DNA of 10,303 nt from Candidatus Fermentibacterales bacterium (GTDB taxonomy: Bacteria > Fermentibacterota > Fermentibacteria > Fermentibacterales > JAFGKQ01): positions 1 through 10,303 of the forward strand of contig JAFGKQ010000095.1 in NCBI GenBank assembly GCA_016928495.1, in the 5' to 3' direction. Position 1 is the first letter of the stretch. Each line of letters begins with the position of its first letter. A model generated the notes under the pieces. The model was not told where the DNA came from, searched no databases, and saw only the letters and a list, made by a program, of their open reading frames with translations. The position numbers and the translations under genes were made by a program. Positions 5,169-10,219 of the stretch are shown one piece after another.

Positions 5169-5582
5169 TCAGGTGCCCTGGCCGATGATCTCCACTGACT
5201 CCAGGGCACTGTTTATCACGAAGGCCCGCTGGATGTTGCACGCCGGGTCCGCAGGGTACAGGAAGAACCCGGTCTTGTCCCTGTGGAAGGCCTGTGTAGT
5301 ACCCAGTAGCACCTCGCCGTCCTGGAACTTCACCTTGAGCTTCTTGCCCGGGGCGGTCGAGATCGCGGAGAAATCCTGCTTGGGTTCGTATGACGGGTCT
5401 CCGCTGAAGTCCTTGACGAAGAACAGAGCCTTCAGCTCATCGAGGACTATCTCCTTCACGAAGTCCTGATTCGCCACGGACGCCAGGTGGAAGGAAGGCT
5501 TGGCCGGCACGAAATCGCGCGTGAAGCCCTTGAAGACGCGGCCATCCTTGTAGTGCGCAACGAGTTTGTTGACGGTCTGCAT
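5169..5582 (-). CDS. DUF6982-like small protein
   Basis: This 137-residue protein starts with MQTVNKLVAHYKDGRVFKG, then TRDFVPAKPSFHL and ELKALFFVKDFSGDPSY. These phrases match my memory of the DUF6982 family, a beta-rich domain often found alone or next to PilZ domains, whose role is unknown. The second half (KLKVKFQDGEVLLGTT, GFFLYPADPACNIQRAFVI) repeats the general pattern of a beta-barrel-like domain, so the protein may contain two related halves of the type K-V-x-F/Y-x-DG-x-V-x-x-G. Start: ATG at 5582 has a strong GGAGGGGGG just upstream; an in-frame ATG at 5606 lies before that site and is disfavoured. There is no signal peptide or membrane segment, so it is probably cytoplasmic. It has its own gap on both sides (107 bp and 153 bp) and may be transcribed alone. 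Confidence 0.75.
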   Translation of the reverse strand: MQTVNKLVAHYKDGRVFKGFTRDFVPAKPSFHLASVANQDFVKEIVLDELKALFFVKDFSGDPSYEPKQDFSAISTAPGKKLKVKFQDGEVLLGTTQAFHRDKTGFFLYPADPACNIQRAFVINSALESVEIIGQGT

Positions 5583-5629
5583 GTTACCCCCCTCCAGACT
5601 CGCCACTCGTACACCCTGTCCGGCCCGGC

Positions 5630-5689: not shown

Positions 5690-6235
5690 CTAACCCGGAG
5701 TAGATTCATCAACCGCGGCCAGCGGCTCCTCGAACACGCCCCTTTCTCTGTTCTTGGTCAGTCTGTCCCACCGCCCGACCCTGCCGTTCATGCATATGTA
5801 GACTCCCGGCACCAGGAGCTGCACTGCCGCAACCGCGCAGCCCAGGTTGAAGACGGCATCGGACCCGGTAACGCTATAGGGGACCATGGCCCCCGTCAGC
5901 ACTACCGTCTTTGTCGAGCAGGCGGTTGCGAGCTTCCGGGCCGTATGCTGCATGGTATCCGTGCCGTGGGTGATCACGATCATCTCCTCCGGAGAGCTCA
6001 CGACCACCTCCAGGATCCTCTCCCGGCCCGGCTCGTCCATGTGCAGGCTGTCTACGAGCTGGTTCACCTCCAGCTCCACGGGAAGGGTGCATCTGACCTG
6101 ACCGAGAATCTCCGGCAGATGGGTCCTGCGAAGCGTCAGCTCGCCGCGCAGCTCGTCGTACTCCTTGTCGAATGTGCCGCCCGTTATGATGATGCGGATG
6201 GCTCGTCCGCGGTCCTGCCGTATCGCGTTTCGCAG
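5690..6235 (-). CDS. Single-domain asparaginase family protein
   Basis: This approximately 181-residue protein matches the N-terminal catalytic domain of L-asparaginases: the threonine motif IIITGGTFDKEYDEL (Thr21), the THGTDTM motif (Thr92, Asp93), KTVVLTGAMVPY (Lys109) and GSDAVFNLGCA. It stops after GVYICMNGRV and GVFEEP, lacking the C-terminal domain of the usual 320-350 residue enzyme. I believe such short forms occur as a stand-alone family in several proteobacteria. Asparagine hydrolysis is the likely but unproven activity. The start is odd: no ATG, GTG or TTG exists in frame between the rubrerythrin stop and the TGGT motif. CTG at 6235 is proposed because GGGAG lies seven bases before it; the next canonical start (GTG 6079) would delete the catalytic threonine. 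The frame is the same as that of the upstream rubrerythrin. Confidence 0.82.
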   Translation of the reverse strand: MRNAIRQDRGRAIRIIITGGTFDKEYDELRGELTLRRTHLPEILGQVRCTLPVELEVNQLVDSLHMDEPGRERILEVVVSSPEEMIVITHGTDTMQHTARKLATACSTKTVVLTGAMVPYSVTGSDAVFNLGCAVAAVQLLVPGVYICMNGRVGRWDRLTKNRERGVFEEPLAAVDESTPG

Positions 6236-6790: not shown

Positions 6791-6898
6791 GCAGGTCGGT
6801 TGACCCAGGGCACATCCAGGAGGCAGGCCGCAGGGCTCTGAGGCCCCACCGGACGTTGGTCCGGGCACCGGGCTCTCGCGGTGGAAAGGCTGCTCGCA

Positions 6899-7330
6899 AT
6901 GGAAAGGGAAGAGCTCCGGAAGCAGAAGCAGCAGCTCGAGACGGAGCGGGATGCGCTCCGGAAGGAGCTGGCCTCTCTGAAGAAGCAGGAGAAGCCGGGC
7001 AGCAACGTGATGGCGGGAGGGCTCGCCGAGCTGAGAGACGGACAGGCCCGGCTGGAGCAGAAGCTGGCTCCCGTCCTGAAGAAGCTGGAGGTGATCGAGC
7101 GGCTCGAGAAGGCGGAGTTCGCTCGCGAGCAGATCCCTCTGGTCCGCCAGGAAGTCGAGCTGCTCGAGCAGGAGCTCCGGGAAGTGGAGAAGAGGTCTCC
7201 TCAGAGGTTCCTGGACAAGATCCGCCACAAGGCCGACCTGGCCCGGGCCCGCAGGAATCTCGAGAACGCGAAGAACAGGCTCGGCGAGTACAAGGGCCTG
7301 GTGTCCTGGTCCGAGCAGTACAAGTGGTAG
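6899..7330 (+). CDS. Small coiled-coil protein
   Basis: This 143-residue protein (149 if GTG 6881 is used) is almost entirely charged helix. Residues 1-30 form a coiled coil (MEREELRKQKQQLE, RDALRKELASLKKQ), followed by a short Gly/Ser linker (KPGSNVMAGG), a second long coil (ARLEQKLAPVLKKLEVIERLE through ELLEQELREVEKRS) and a basic helical tail ending in SWSEQYKW. No enzyme motif, signal peptide or membrane segment is visible. ATG 6899 was chosen because GGAAAGG lies about nine bases before it; GTG 6881 has no such site. It may be a scaffold or a structural cell-division or polar factor, but that cannot be supported by sequence. It is divergent from the rubrerythrin gene and ends just before the his leader. 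Its very long antisense frame is an artefact of GC-rich codons. Confidence 0.7.
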   Translation: MEREELRKQKQQLETERDALRKELASLKKQEKPGSNVMAGGLAELRDGQARLEQKLAPVLKKLEVIERLEKAEFAREQIPLVRQEVELLEQELREVEKRSPQRFLDKIRHKADLARARRNLENAKNRLGEYKGLVSWSEQYKW

Positions 7331-7337
7331 AAGAGGG

Positions 7338-7362
7338 CCGGCCGGGACCGTTCCCGGGCCGG
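7338..7362 (+). terminator. GC-rich hairpin after the coiled-coil gene, no U tract
   Basis: CCGGCC-GGGA, a four-base loop, then TCCC-G-GGCCGG form a 10-pair stem with one bulged G, eight bases after the stop codon. It is followed by GCTTGACA rather than a T run, so it would be an atypical terminator. Its place between the coiled-coil stop and the candidate his promoter suits an end-of-transcript signal. Confidence 0.35.
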
Positions 7363-7364
7363 GC

Positions 7365-7393
7365 TTGACAAAGACCCTTCCCGATCGAATGTA
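7365..7393 (+). promoter_or_regulatory. Candidate promoter of the his leader
   Basis: A perfect -35 hexamer TTGACA is at 7365-7370. Seventeen bases later comes AATGTA (7388-7393), a poor -10 match. If used, transcription would start near 7400, at or just before the ATG at 7404, so the leader peptide could be translated from a nearly leaderless RNA. Confidence 0.4.
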
Positions 7394-7403
7394 CACCCCC
7401 ACT

Positions 7404-7565
7404 ATGAATGCCACACCAGTGGTCGCATCAGGACTCGCGCGCACGCCGGGAGGTTCCCCGGCCCGCGCAGGCCTGCGCCATCTCTTCCATGCTCACCATC
7501 ATGTCAGGACAGGCGGGATGCCCATGCGTCCTCATGCCGGCTCCGGGGGAGGGATGACCGACTAG
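7404..7565 (+). CDS. hisL: Putative histidine-operon leader peptide
   Basis: This 53-codon frame contains six His codons, five of them in eight positions (HLFHAHHH, residues 26-33, bases 7479-7502). It ends in TAG 32 bases before an intrinsic terminator that itself precedes hisG. Clustered codons for the end product ahead of a terminator are the hallmark of ribosome-mediated attenuation, as in E. coli hisL. Ribosome stalling for lack of His-tRNA would keep the downstream antiterminator free. The start is uncertain: ATG 7404 has no Shine-Dalgarno and may be leaderless; ATG 7389 and GTG 7419 are also in frame. The peptide is longer than classical leaders. The whole frame is GC-rich, with Gly/Pro/Arg filler outside the His run, suggesting that only the His run is selected. 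It could be a chance frame, but its position makes that less likely. Confidence 0.6.
   Translation: MNATPVVASGLARTPGGSPARAGLRHLFHAHHHVRTGGMPMRPHAGSGGGMTD
7439..7468 (+). other. Leader RNA hairpin before the His codons
   Basis: GCGC (7439-7442) and GCCGGG (7445-7450) pair with CCCGGC (7457-7462) and GCGC (7465-7468) around a six-base loop and a 2x2 internal loop. A second, overlapping perfect palindrome GCGCAGGCCTGCGC (7465-7478) ends exactly one base before the first His codon. The two are mutually exclusive and could act as polymerase pause or switching structures. Confidence 0.45.
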
Positions 7566-7596
7566 ACTCGCGGACAAGGCAGCAGAGAGGGCAGGC

Positions 7597-7624
7597 AGGC
7601 CCGCCGGATTCCGGCGGGCCTTTT
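7597..7624 (+). terminator. Intrinsic terminator (attenuator) upstream of hisG
   Basis: AGGCCCGCCGG, a three-base ATT loop, and CCGGCGGGCCT form a perfect 11-pair stem followed by TTTTCTTGTTT. The stem sits between the leader peptide stop and the hisG ribosome binding site, the position of a his attenuator. The 5' arm bases CCCGCC (7600-7605) can alternatively pair with GGCGGG at 7512-7517, ten bases after the last clustered His codon, giving a possible antiterminator. Confidence 0.85.
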
Positions 7625-7650
7625 CTTGTTTCGGAAGGGGAGAAGAGACG

Positions 7651-8526
7651 ATGCGGAACGCAAACGACAGGCTGAGGCTGCTGCTTCCCGCCGGCAGGAT
7701 ACAGGAAAAGGTGCTGGGGCTGCTCCGGAGAAGCGGCCTCGAGTTCGGCATGACGGCAAGATCCTACAAGCCCGTGTGCTCCGACCCCGCCATAGAGGCT
7801 AAGATGCTGAAGCCTCAGAACATCCCGCAGCTGGTCGCCCTGGGGAGGCACCACTGCGGCTTCACTGGCCTTGACTGGGTGGTGGAGCAGGAGGCGGACG
7901 TGATGGAGCTTCTCGATCTCGGCTACGATGCGGCGACCATCGTCTCGGCCATTCCCGAGAACCTGAGCCTGGACGAGCTGCTGGGCAACGGCGTGGCCGT
8001 GGTGGCATCGGAGTACAGGAGGATCGCGCTGGACTACATCCGGAACCGGGGGATCACCGGAGGGGTACTGGTCCAGGCCTATGGCGCCACCGAGGCGCTC
8101 CCGCCCGACGATGCCGACATGATCGTCGACAACACCTCCACCGGAACCACCCTGGCCATGAACCGCCTCAAGGTCGTGGACGAGATCATGCGCACCTCGA
8201 CCAGGTTCATCTGCAACAGACAGGTCTACGAGAGGGACCCGGAGATCCGCAGGAAGCTGGATGAGATCGCCATGATCATGCGCAGCACGCTCGATGCGGC
8301 AGAGAAGAGGATCCTCGAGATGAACGTTCCTGGCGAGAACCTCGAGGAGGTCGTCGGGCTCCTTCCCTGCATGCGCTCACCGACGGTGGCGCCGCTCTAC
8401 GGCGAGGAGGGCTTTGCGGTGAAGATCGCGATGCCGAGGTGCGACGTCGCCAGGCTGATTCCCCTGCTCAAGGCCATGGGGGCAAGAGACATACTCGAGT
8501 ACAACGTCGAGAAGATCGTGATCTAG
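7651..8526 (+). CDS. hisG: ATP phosphoribosyltransferase, long form
   Basis: HisG joins ATP and PRPP in the first step of histidine synthesis. This 291-residue version is the long form: two catalytic domains plus a C-terminal ACT-like regulatory domain (about residues 215-291, ending IAMPRCDVARLIPLLKAMGARDILEYNVEKIVI in two pieces of strand and helix). It should therefore work as a homohexamer inhibited by histidine and not need HisZ. The N-terminal RLRLLLPAGRIQEKVLGLL and the PRPP loop DNTSTGTTL (160-168, after DADMIV) are diagnostic. ATG 7651 follows AAGGGGAGAAGAG. It is the first enzyme gene after the attenuator, so its expression is probably controlled by the leader. The TAG stop overlaps the TAGGAGG ribosome binding site of hisC. 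Identification is secure. Confidence 0.96.
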   Translation: MRNANDRLRLLLPAGRIQEKVLGLLRRSGLEFGMTARSYKPVCSDPAIEAKMLKPQNIPQLVALGRHHCGFTGLDWVVEQEADVMELLDLGYDAATIVSAIPENLSLDELLGNGVAVVASEYRRIALDYIRNRGITGGVLVQAYGATEALPPDDADMIVDNTSTGTTLAMNRLKVVDEIMRTSTRFICNRQVYERDPEIRRKLDEIAMIMRSTLDAAEKRILEMNVPGENLEEVVGLLPCMRSPTVAPLYGEEGFAVKIAMPRCDVARLIPLLKAMGARDILEYNVEKIVI

Positions 8527-8537
8527 GAGGACGGGCG

Positions 8538-9623
8538 ATGACCGACAGACCGCTTGCCAGGGAATCCGTCAGGGCATCGGTTGCGTACCAGCCGCCGCTC
8601 GAGGGCAGGGCATCCATGGTCAGGCTGGACTTCAACGAGTCCAGCCCTCCCGGCACACTCGACCAGCTCGTGCTCGAGAGGCGCTGTATCGAGATGTACC
8701 CCGAGTACGACCGGGCGGTAGCCATGCTCTCCGTGCACTGGGGAATCGACCGGGAGAACCTCCTGCTGTGCAACGGGAGCAGCGAGGGGATCATGCTCGT
8801 CTCCTTCTGCTTCACAGAGCCGGGCAGAACCGTTGCCGTTGTCGCCCGGCCCACGTTCGCACTGATACCCCACTACCTGCGGATCGCCGGTGCTCTCGTG
8901 ACCGAGGTGGATGTGGACCCTGCGTGCTTCGAGCTGCCTCTGGGCGATCTGGAGCGTGCCCTCGAAGGCGGGGCCGGGATCGTGTTCCTTGCCTCGCCCG
9001 ACAATCCGACCGGCGCAGTCGTCCCGGTCGAATGGCTGGAGGATGCGCGCCGACGCTTCCCGGGCTGCCTTTTCGTCCTCGATCAGGCCTACGCGGAGTA
9101 CGTCGCGGATGACCCTTGCCGCATGCTGCACGCTGCGTCTGCAGGAAGCAACCTGCTCGTGCTTCGCACCTTCTCCAAGGCCTGGGGTCTCGCGGGTCTC
9201 CGGATCGGCGCCGTAGTGGGCAACGGGAACCTGATCGGTGAGCTATCCAAGCTCAGGACCCCGTATAGCGTGAACGCGGCAGCAGTCGGAGCACTCTGTG
9301 CAGTGATCTCCGATGCCCCTTCGGCGCCGAGGAGAGGTGCCCTCGAAACGGCGCGGAGACGGGACCGTCTTGTGGATCAGGTTCGCGGACTGGGGCTGGA
9401 GTGCCGAGGCAGCCCTGCGAACTTCGTTCTGATCGAGCTCGGAGGATCTCATGCCGCCAGAGCTTTCTGCGATCTCTGCAGGAGCAGGGCCCTCCTCGTC
9501 AGGGACAGGTCGGACTGTCATGGGATGGAGGGTGTGGTCCGCGCGTCCGTGGGGCCTGACCGGCAGAACGAGCTGCTGCTCGACTGCATAGGCGAGTATC
9601 TGAAGGCTGGAGGGATGACATGA
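8538..9623 (+). CDS. hisC: Histidinol-phosphate aminotransferase
   Basis: HisC is a PLP enzyme that moves an amino group from glutamate to imidazole-acetol phosphate. This 361-residue protein has the fold-type I aminotransferase marks: LDFNES near residue 30, ASPDNPTG (152-159), DQAYAEY (Asp182, Tyr185) and the PLP lysine Lys214 in TFSKAWGLAGLRIGA. Arg residues follow in the C-terminal RASVG. ATG 8538 has AGGAGG about seven bases before it, inside the hisG stop region; a longer frame from 8439 overlaps hisG and is rejected. The TGA stop overlaps the hisB start as ATGA, which implies translational coupling. The general family also includes other small-substrate aminotransferases, but operon position makes HisC nearly certain. 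The usual order has hisD between hisG and hisC; here it is absent. Confidence 0.95.
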   Translation: MTDRPLARESVRASVAYQPPLEGRASMVRLDFNESSPPGTLDQLVLERRCIEMYPEYDRAVAMLSVHWGIDRENLLLCNGSSEGIMLVSFCFTEPGRTVAVVARPTFALIPHYLRIAGALVTEVDVDPACFELPLGDLERALEGGAGIVFLASPDNPTGAVVPVEWLEDARRRFPGCLFVLDQAYAEYVADDPCRMLHAASAGSNLLVLRTFSKAWGLAGLRIGAVVGNGNLIGELSKLRTPYSVNAAAVGALCAVISDAPSAPRRGALETARRRDRLVDQVRGLGLECRGSPANFVLIELGGSHAARAFCDLCRSRALLVRDRSDCHGMEGVVRASVGPDRQNELLLDCIGEYLKAGGMT

Positions 9624-10219
9624 GCGGCACGAGAGAGGGCTCCTTCCGAAGGAAGACGAGGGAGACGGATCTGAGGACCACACTCGGGCTCGATCGCTTC
9701 GAGTTCCCGGAGGTCAGCGTTCAGCTTCCATTCCTGGGTCACATGCTCGAGGCGCTCGCGGTCCATGCCGGTGTGTTCCTCGGAGTCCGGGGCACCGGAG
9801 ACCTGAGCGTGGATCCGCATCACCTGATCGAGGACTGCGGGATCTGTCTCGGAAGGGCGCTGTGCATGGCGCTGGAGGCCGGCGGGCCGGTCGCGCGCAT
9901 CGGGTGGTCGATAGTGCCGATGGATGGAAGCCTGGCAACGACTGCGCTCGACCTGTGCGGGCGGCCCAACCTCGTCTGGAAGGCGGAGCCCGGACTGGAA
10001 GCACTTCCCGACGGCACCAGCCCATCGCTCTACCGCCACTTCTTCAAGGGCTTCGTGGACGGTTCCGGCTCGACTCTGCACGTGATCCTCGAGTACTCGG
10101 ACGACGGGCACCACGCCATCGAGTGCATCTTCAAGTCCTTCGGGCGGAGCCTGGGGCAGTCGGTGACTCTGCGGGATGAGGCAGTGACAGCCAGCTCCAA
10201 GGGGGTGCTCGATGGCTGA
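9620..10219 (+). CDS. hisB: Imidazoleglycerol-phosphate dehydratase
   Basis: HisB removes water from imidazole glycerol phosphate, using two manganese ions. This 199-residue monofunctional form lacks the histidinol phosphatase domain of the E. coli enzyme. The metal-binding motifs are present: H67-H68-x-x-E71-D72 (VDPHHLIEDCGICLG) and H164-H165-x-x-E168 (GHHAIECIFKS), with His41 (LGHMLEALAVHAG) and His140 (RHFFKGF). The N-terminal RRKTRETDL is the family start. Two oddities: the usual FDHM is replaced by LGHM, and the HHTxED threonine by leucine. ATG 9620 overlaps the hisC stop (ATGA) and follows GGAGGGATGAC. The 3' end overlaps hisH by eight bases. Identity is secure; the changes look like lineage variation, not loss of function, since all ligands are kept. 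Confidence 0.95.
   Translation: MSGTREGSFRRKTRETDLRTTLGLDRFEFPEVSVQLPFLGHMLEALAVHAGVFLGVRGTGDLSVDPHHLIEDCGICLGRALCMALEAGGPVARIGWSIVPMDGSLATTALDLCGRPNLVWKAEPGLEALPDGTSPSLYRHFFKGFVDGSGSTLHVILEYSDDGHHAIECIFKSFGRSLGQSVTLRDEAVTASSKGVLDG

Follow-up and report, generated by a model that had tools for sequence, protein, structure and literature searches.

What governs transcription of the histidine genes at the end of the 10,303-nt stretch analyzed here (hereafter, the window), which comes from a Candidatus Fermentibacterales bacterium with a fragmented 2.3-Mb assembly of 81% completeness? Pfam places hisG, hisC, and hisB there in that order, and the original prediction had read the region directly before hisG as a histidine attenuator with a His-rich leader peptide. 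The analysis reported below, which rests in part on modeling, leads us to the view that this element very probably regulates the hisGCB operon by ribosome-mediated transcription attenuation, hisG being the first gene that would be under its control. The features are collected in Table 1. The gene 5' of the leader is represented by the frame 6881-7330, on the same strand as hisG, whereas for the hisC-like gene only the longest frame is given, the true start being probably later than 8439 and close to the end of hisG. Elsewhere in the window, the minus strand carries a DUF6982-family protein (5169-5606) and a frame (5690-6079) resembling, by eye, part of an L-asparaginase.

Table 1. Features of the his leader region and operon, in window coordinates.
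Feature	Position	Strand	Basis
Probable promoter: TTGACA 7365-7370, 17-nt spacer, -10 AATGTA 7388-7393	7365..7393	+	sequence; relatives
Leader peptide frame MNATPVVASGLARTPGGSPARAGLRHLFHAHHHVRTGGMPMRPHAGSGGGMTD, 53 codons + TAG	7404..7565 (ATG 7404, TAG 7563-7565)	+	translation
Strong hairpin in leader frame, directly 5' of His run	7437..7468	+	-23.1 kcal/mol, z -2.0
Regulatory His codons CAT CTC TTC CAT GCT CAC CAT CAT (HLFHAHHH)	7479..7502	+	shuffles; relatives
Local hairpin 7515-7521/7526-7532 + 7512-7514/7536-7538	7512..7538	+	-13.6 kcal/mol, z -2.7
Antiterminator: 7512-7517/7600-7605, 7519-7522/7594-7597, 7525-7527/7591-7593, inner helices 7531-7587	7512..7605	+	minimum-energy fold, ribosome on His codons
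Intrinsic terminator AGGCCCGCCGG-ATT-CCGGCGGGCCT, 11-bp stem 7597-7621, 3-nt loop, then TTTTC	7597..7625	+	folding
hisG, ATP phosphoribosyltransferase with HisG_C domain	7651..8526	+	PF01634 1.2e-35, PF08029 8e-22
hisC-like aminotransferase	8439..9623	+	PF00155; longest frame
hisB, imidazoleglycerol-phosphate dehydratase	9620..10219	+	PF00475

The TTGACA, the peptide stretch HLFHAHHH, the GGCGGG, the TAG at 7563, and the terminator were all found where they had been predicted. The His run occupies codons 26-33 of the 53-codon frame, with five CAY triplets among those eight codons; and since at least five His in eight codons appeared in only 0.06% of cases (p 0.0006) when the stretch 7331-7650 was dinucleotide-shuffled 20,000 times, the run is not due to chance, while the count of such CAY triplet sites over the whole genome (281) was uninformative. 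The terminator folds with -24.9 kcal/mol (z -4.7), a stability that none of 200 shuffles equaled, and contains in its 5' arm the CCCGCC (7600-7605) that is complementary to the GGCGGG (7512-7517) downstream from the His codons. The extra hairpins anticipated just before the His run were likewise encountered, at -23 kcal/mol, in the form of two helices (7437-7441/7464-7468 and 7445-7450/7457-7462), which structure might possibly function as an RNA-polymerase pause hairpin.

The leader had been described as up to 53 codons long and without a Shine-Dalgarno sequence, and the frame from the ATG at 7404 agrees on both points. No sigma-70-type promoter passes a consensus scan because the -10 hexamer, AATGTA, is weak, the TTGACA being perfect. 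The ATG lies 10 nt past that -10 and, in L013—a locus from the same phylum considered below—9 nt past a -10 of TATTCT. If the promoter is used as we infer, the window's ATG would come about 3-5 nt after the start of the transcript, and the leaders of both loci would begin no more than a few nucleotides from the 5' end, which near-leaderless arrangement would account for the missing Shine-Dalgarno in the window. Unlike the window, the related loci L002 and L004 have purine-rich, Shine-Dalgarno-like stretches preceding their leaders.

A masked stretch stood for the ribosome, beginning 18 nt behind the first A-site base and ending 12 nt ahead of it; the RNA was folded as far as the middle of the terminator. 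At every ribosome position within the His run, the 5' arm of the terminator paired with the RNA ahead at a mean probability of 0.54-0.67; so that in this model the ribosome on the His codons does leave 7512-7517 to hold the terminator arm, as had been proposed. From the codon after the run as far as the stop, the probability fell to 0.00-0.11. The antiterminator is thus computed to exclude the terminator, to form while the ribosome stands on any of the His codons, and to be lost once the ribosome has gone past. In L002 the same model likewise lost the pairing just as the ribosome left the last His codon; a similar switch with a less exact edge was seen in L004a, L004b, and L013, the last of the four His codons in L004a being already beyond that edge; and the E. 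coli hisL control followed the same trend more weakly. Shuffled spacers matched the observed switch in 6 of 200 cases (3%) for the window, 1 for L002, 12 for L004a, 3 for L004b, 18 for L013, and 8 for E. coli, each out of 200. Over 34 loci the terminator 5' arm was complementary to the 40 nt 3' of the His run (mean z -1.69) and displayed no complementarity to the 40 nt 5' of it (mean z 0.07; SE about 0.17), which means we take as support and attach to them no probability, the loci being partly related and hence nonindependent. In the window by itself, the complementarity of the arm was not significant relative to shuffles, which are equally GC-rich (z -0.7, p 0.26), and the weight of the argument therefore shifts to the relatives and to the ribosome-position model.

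These results would fit the following course of events. Transcription would start near 7400 and a ribosome begin at the ATG, almost at the 5' end. If His-tRNA were scarce, the ribosome would wait on one of the His codons, the RNA ahead would fold into the long antiterminator, with 7512-7517 holding 7600-7605 before the 3' arm of the terminator had been made, and the RNA polymerase would continue into hisG. If His-tRNA were ample, the ribosome would pass the run, 7512-7538 would close as a local hairpin that locked the antiterminator arm away, and on finishing at the TAG the ribosome would cover the inner antiterminator helices, so that the terminator would form and transcription end. The parts, their conservation, and the position-dependent switch of the fold are what the computation shows; the translation of the leader and the response to histidine we infer. 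The order of events matters here, since in the full-length RNA at equilibrium the terminator is favored despite a stalled ribosome (about -53 versus -40 to -44 kcal/mol) and is thus the stable state once complete, so that the antiterminator has to form first; the order of transcription permits this sequence, and a kinetic pre-emption of the terminator may be supposed.

In one particular the mechanism departs from the original prediction, according to which a ribosome arriving at the TAG would cover 7512-7517. A bacterial ribosome at 7563, with the usual footprint, covers about 7548-7578. We accordingly rejected that detail: a ribosome in that position sits on inner helices of the antiterminator, while 7512-7538 closes into its local hairpin, which belongs to the minimum-energy fold computed with the ribosome mask at the stop codon. 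The TAG sits 45 nt past the antiterminator arm 7512-7517, a distance larger than in the relatives; the stop codons of L002 and L004 are only a few nucleotides from the arm—the long tail of the window being the exception—so that the covering of the arm by a stop-codon ribosome would hold there.

The phylum sample consisted of 42 genomes, all from one order, of which only five encode HisB; HisG is missing as well from nearly all the others, which absence suggests that most of these organisms are probably histidine auxotrophs. Histidine synthesis is thus an exception in the phylum, recognizable HisG and HisB being missing from most of G001-G041. In one of the five HisB genomes, G013, hisG runs off the contig and the upstream region is unreadable; the evidence within the phylum comes, then, from four informative genomes. 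All four (the window, L002, L004, and L013) have a His leader, a G-rich arm, a terminator, and a promoter-like TTGACR, with TTGACA or TTGACG at the matching site in the last three. The HisG of L002 (G005) is 64% identical to that of the window, and its leader ends in ...LWHHHRHVHPSAGAGHTL; that of L013 (G002) is just 29% identical, and the leader there reads MKQGIALGRHHHHAARRQGGWCVPG; and in L004 (G041) one leader, MNKLARVTMHHHHVVCINTRGGGAF, is followed by another, MRNSNHHHHGSSECKGRGAP, each with a terminator of its own behind it. In L013 the central C/G/C of the arm, the terminator 5' arm, and the 3' arm is replaced by G/C/G with both pairings kept, this swap being the single clear compensatory change and coming from that locus alone. 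Relatives that kept the terminator and had lost the His run had been named in advance as the observation that would speak against attenuation; all four readable genomes keep both. With that conservation, with pairing that starts right after the His codons, and with a switch placed exactly at the end of the run, the reading as a His attenuator held up. The hisG of G041 is split across two frames by an internal TGA and TAA (L004:1498-2190), through either sequencing error or decay. Two complete units of His leader plus terminator stand in tandem 5' of hisG not only there (L004:1215-1497) but also in Kangiella shandongensis (L057, about 2620-2980) and in a Calditrichia bin (L049, about 2610-2890). 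In the latter the second attenuator and hisG are separated by a tRNA-His (GTG) gene (L049:2887-2960), a placement that might bring under the attenuator's control the very tRNA whose charging is sensed.

Other explanations of the same features have to be weighed. The terminator could simply end the upstream gene, which shares the strand of hisG and stops at 7330, with the His codons there by chance; but the terminator lies about 270 nt beyond that frame and only 25-30 nt before hisG, with the TTGACA in between, and the improbability of the run in the shuffles, together with the retention of run, arm, and terminator in all the readable relatives, renders this account highly improbable. Scarcely more credible, though still very unlikely, would be a His-rich leader that acted on hisG translation or on Rho-dependent termination with no role for the intrinsic terminator: the thermodynamic dominance of the terminator and the existence of translational attenuator variants (PMC9413887) speak for such a scheme, and the strong hairpin with its U tract 5' of hisG speaks against it. 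If, finally, the reading frame were incidental, the element could be a T-box—which tRNA-binding RNAs regulate his genes in Firmicutes (PMC9413887)—or some other riboswitch; we give that idea practically no credence, since no Rfam family, the T-box and RF00514 His_leader included, matched in the window up to an E of 5 and the switch point tracks the His codons. Attenuation by a translating ribosome is the explanation that we retain.

How far does such attenuation extend? From a scan of named genomes we picked 80 hisG loci by HisG similarity, 79 of them with an upstream stretch; at least four His in eight codons occurred upstream of hisG in 33 of the 79, versus a single case among the same 79 when the reverse strand was read. 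Named as in their record titles, many of which denote metagenome bins, the leader-bearing groups included Obscuribacterales and Vampirovibrionales (Melainabacteria), Treponema and relatives (Spirochaetota), Zixibacteria, Calditrichota, Bacteroidota, Aminicenantes, and Kangiella with Pleionea (Pseudomonadota). The same plan is thus found 5' of hisG in at least seven lineages outside the enterobacteria. At the gathering threshold RF00514 His_leader matched none of L002, L004, L013, L026, L027, L049, and L057, while scoring 131.6 bits with the E. coli control; with the window, the Rfam models missed all eight non-E. coli leaders tested, and the range of the mechanism is therefore probably under-recorded: his attenuators are apparently common in many phyla without being listed in the databases. 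A tree of HisG united the window, L002, and L004 in one group (support 97), which was embedded in a set of attenuator-bearing Melainabacteria and Zixibacteria; the attenuator label required at least 11 changes, each of which might be a gain or a loss, and only 3 when strongly supported branches alone were counted, so that there may have been one or a few origins.

A 2013 survey with Rfam models had suggested that amino-acid attenuators may stem from Gammaproteobacteria, with very few transfers (PMC3766115). We incline slightly toward a different history, in which his attenuation would be ancient or repeatedly evolved and would cross phyla instead of having been born in Gammaproteobacteria and rarely spread, with near-leaderless leaders in the present lineage and, in places, two in series. 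Published predictions of his attenuators span Proteobacteria and several Firmicutes, among the latter the Bacillus cereus group, Eubacteriales, and Erysipelotrichales (PMC9413887), with further examples at hisZ and hisS in bacilli (PMC2965389). A search of the literature turned up no attenuators in candidate phyla. The comparative study of Vitreschak et al. 2004 is said to list perhaps Bacteroidetes/Chlorobi and Thermotogales as well. The organism itself does lie outside the classical host range, as had been claimed; the case stands out less than that claim implied, given the Firmicutes predictions and the many phyla of our survey.

The computations lend good support to a mechanism that is already known, here in a host unusual for it. 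Its variant traits would be the near-leaderless start, the length of a leader that carries the His run in mid-frame, and, in a relative, the tandem copies; leaders starting at the extreme 5' end and doubled attenuators offer testable variants of the textbook mechanism. The predictions in Firmicutes share with the window a His leader, a terminator, and an antiterminator before his genes outside Proteobacteria (PMC9413887, PMC2965389), but differ in phylum and in sequence. In mycobacteria, small upstream frames rich in Cys codons have been proposed as attenuators, whether of transcription or of translation being left open (PMC4633059); these resemble the window as proposed attenuator leaders in hosts where leaderless transcripts are common, and differ in that they encode cysteine instead of histidine and belong to Actinobacteria. 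With the hisL of E. coli and Salmonella (RF00514) the window shares a short frame with a His run and an intrinsic terminator 5' of hisG, and with that of E. coli an antiterminator that begins just past the run and the same switch in the same model. Whereas hisL has 16 codons with seven consecutive His, the window has 53 with five His in eight; and the near-leaderless start, the long tail 3' of the His run, in which a local hairpin lies, and the lack of an RF00514 match are traits of the window.
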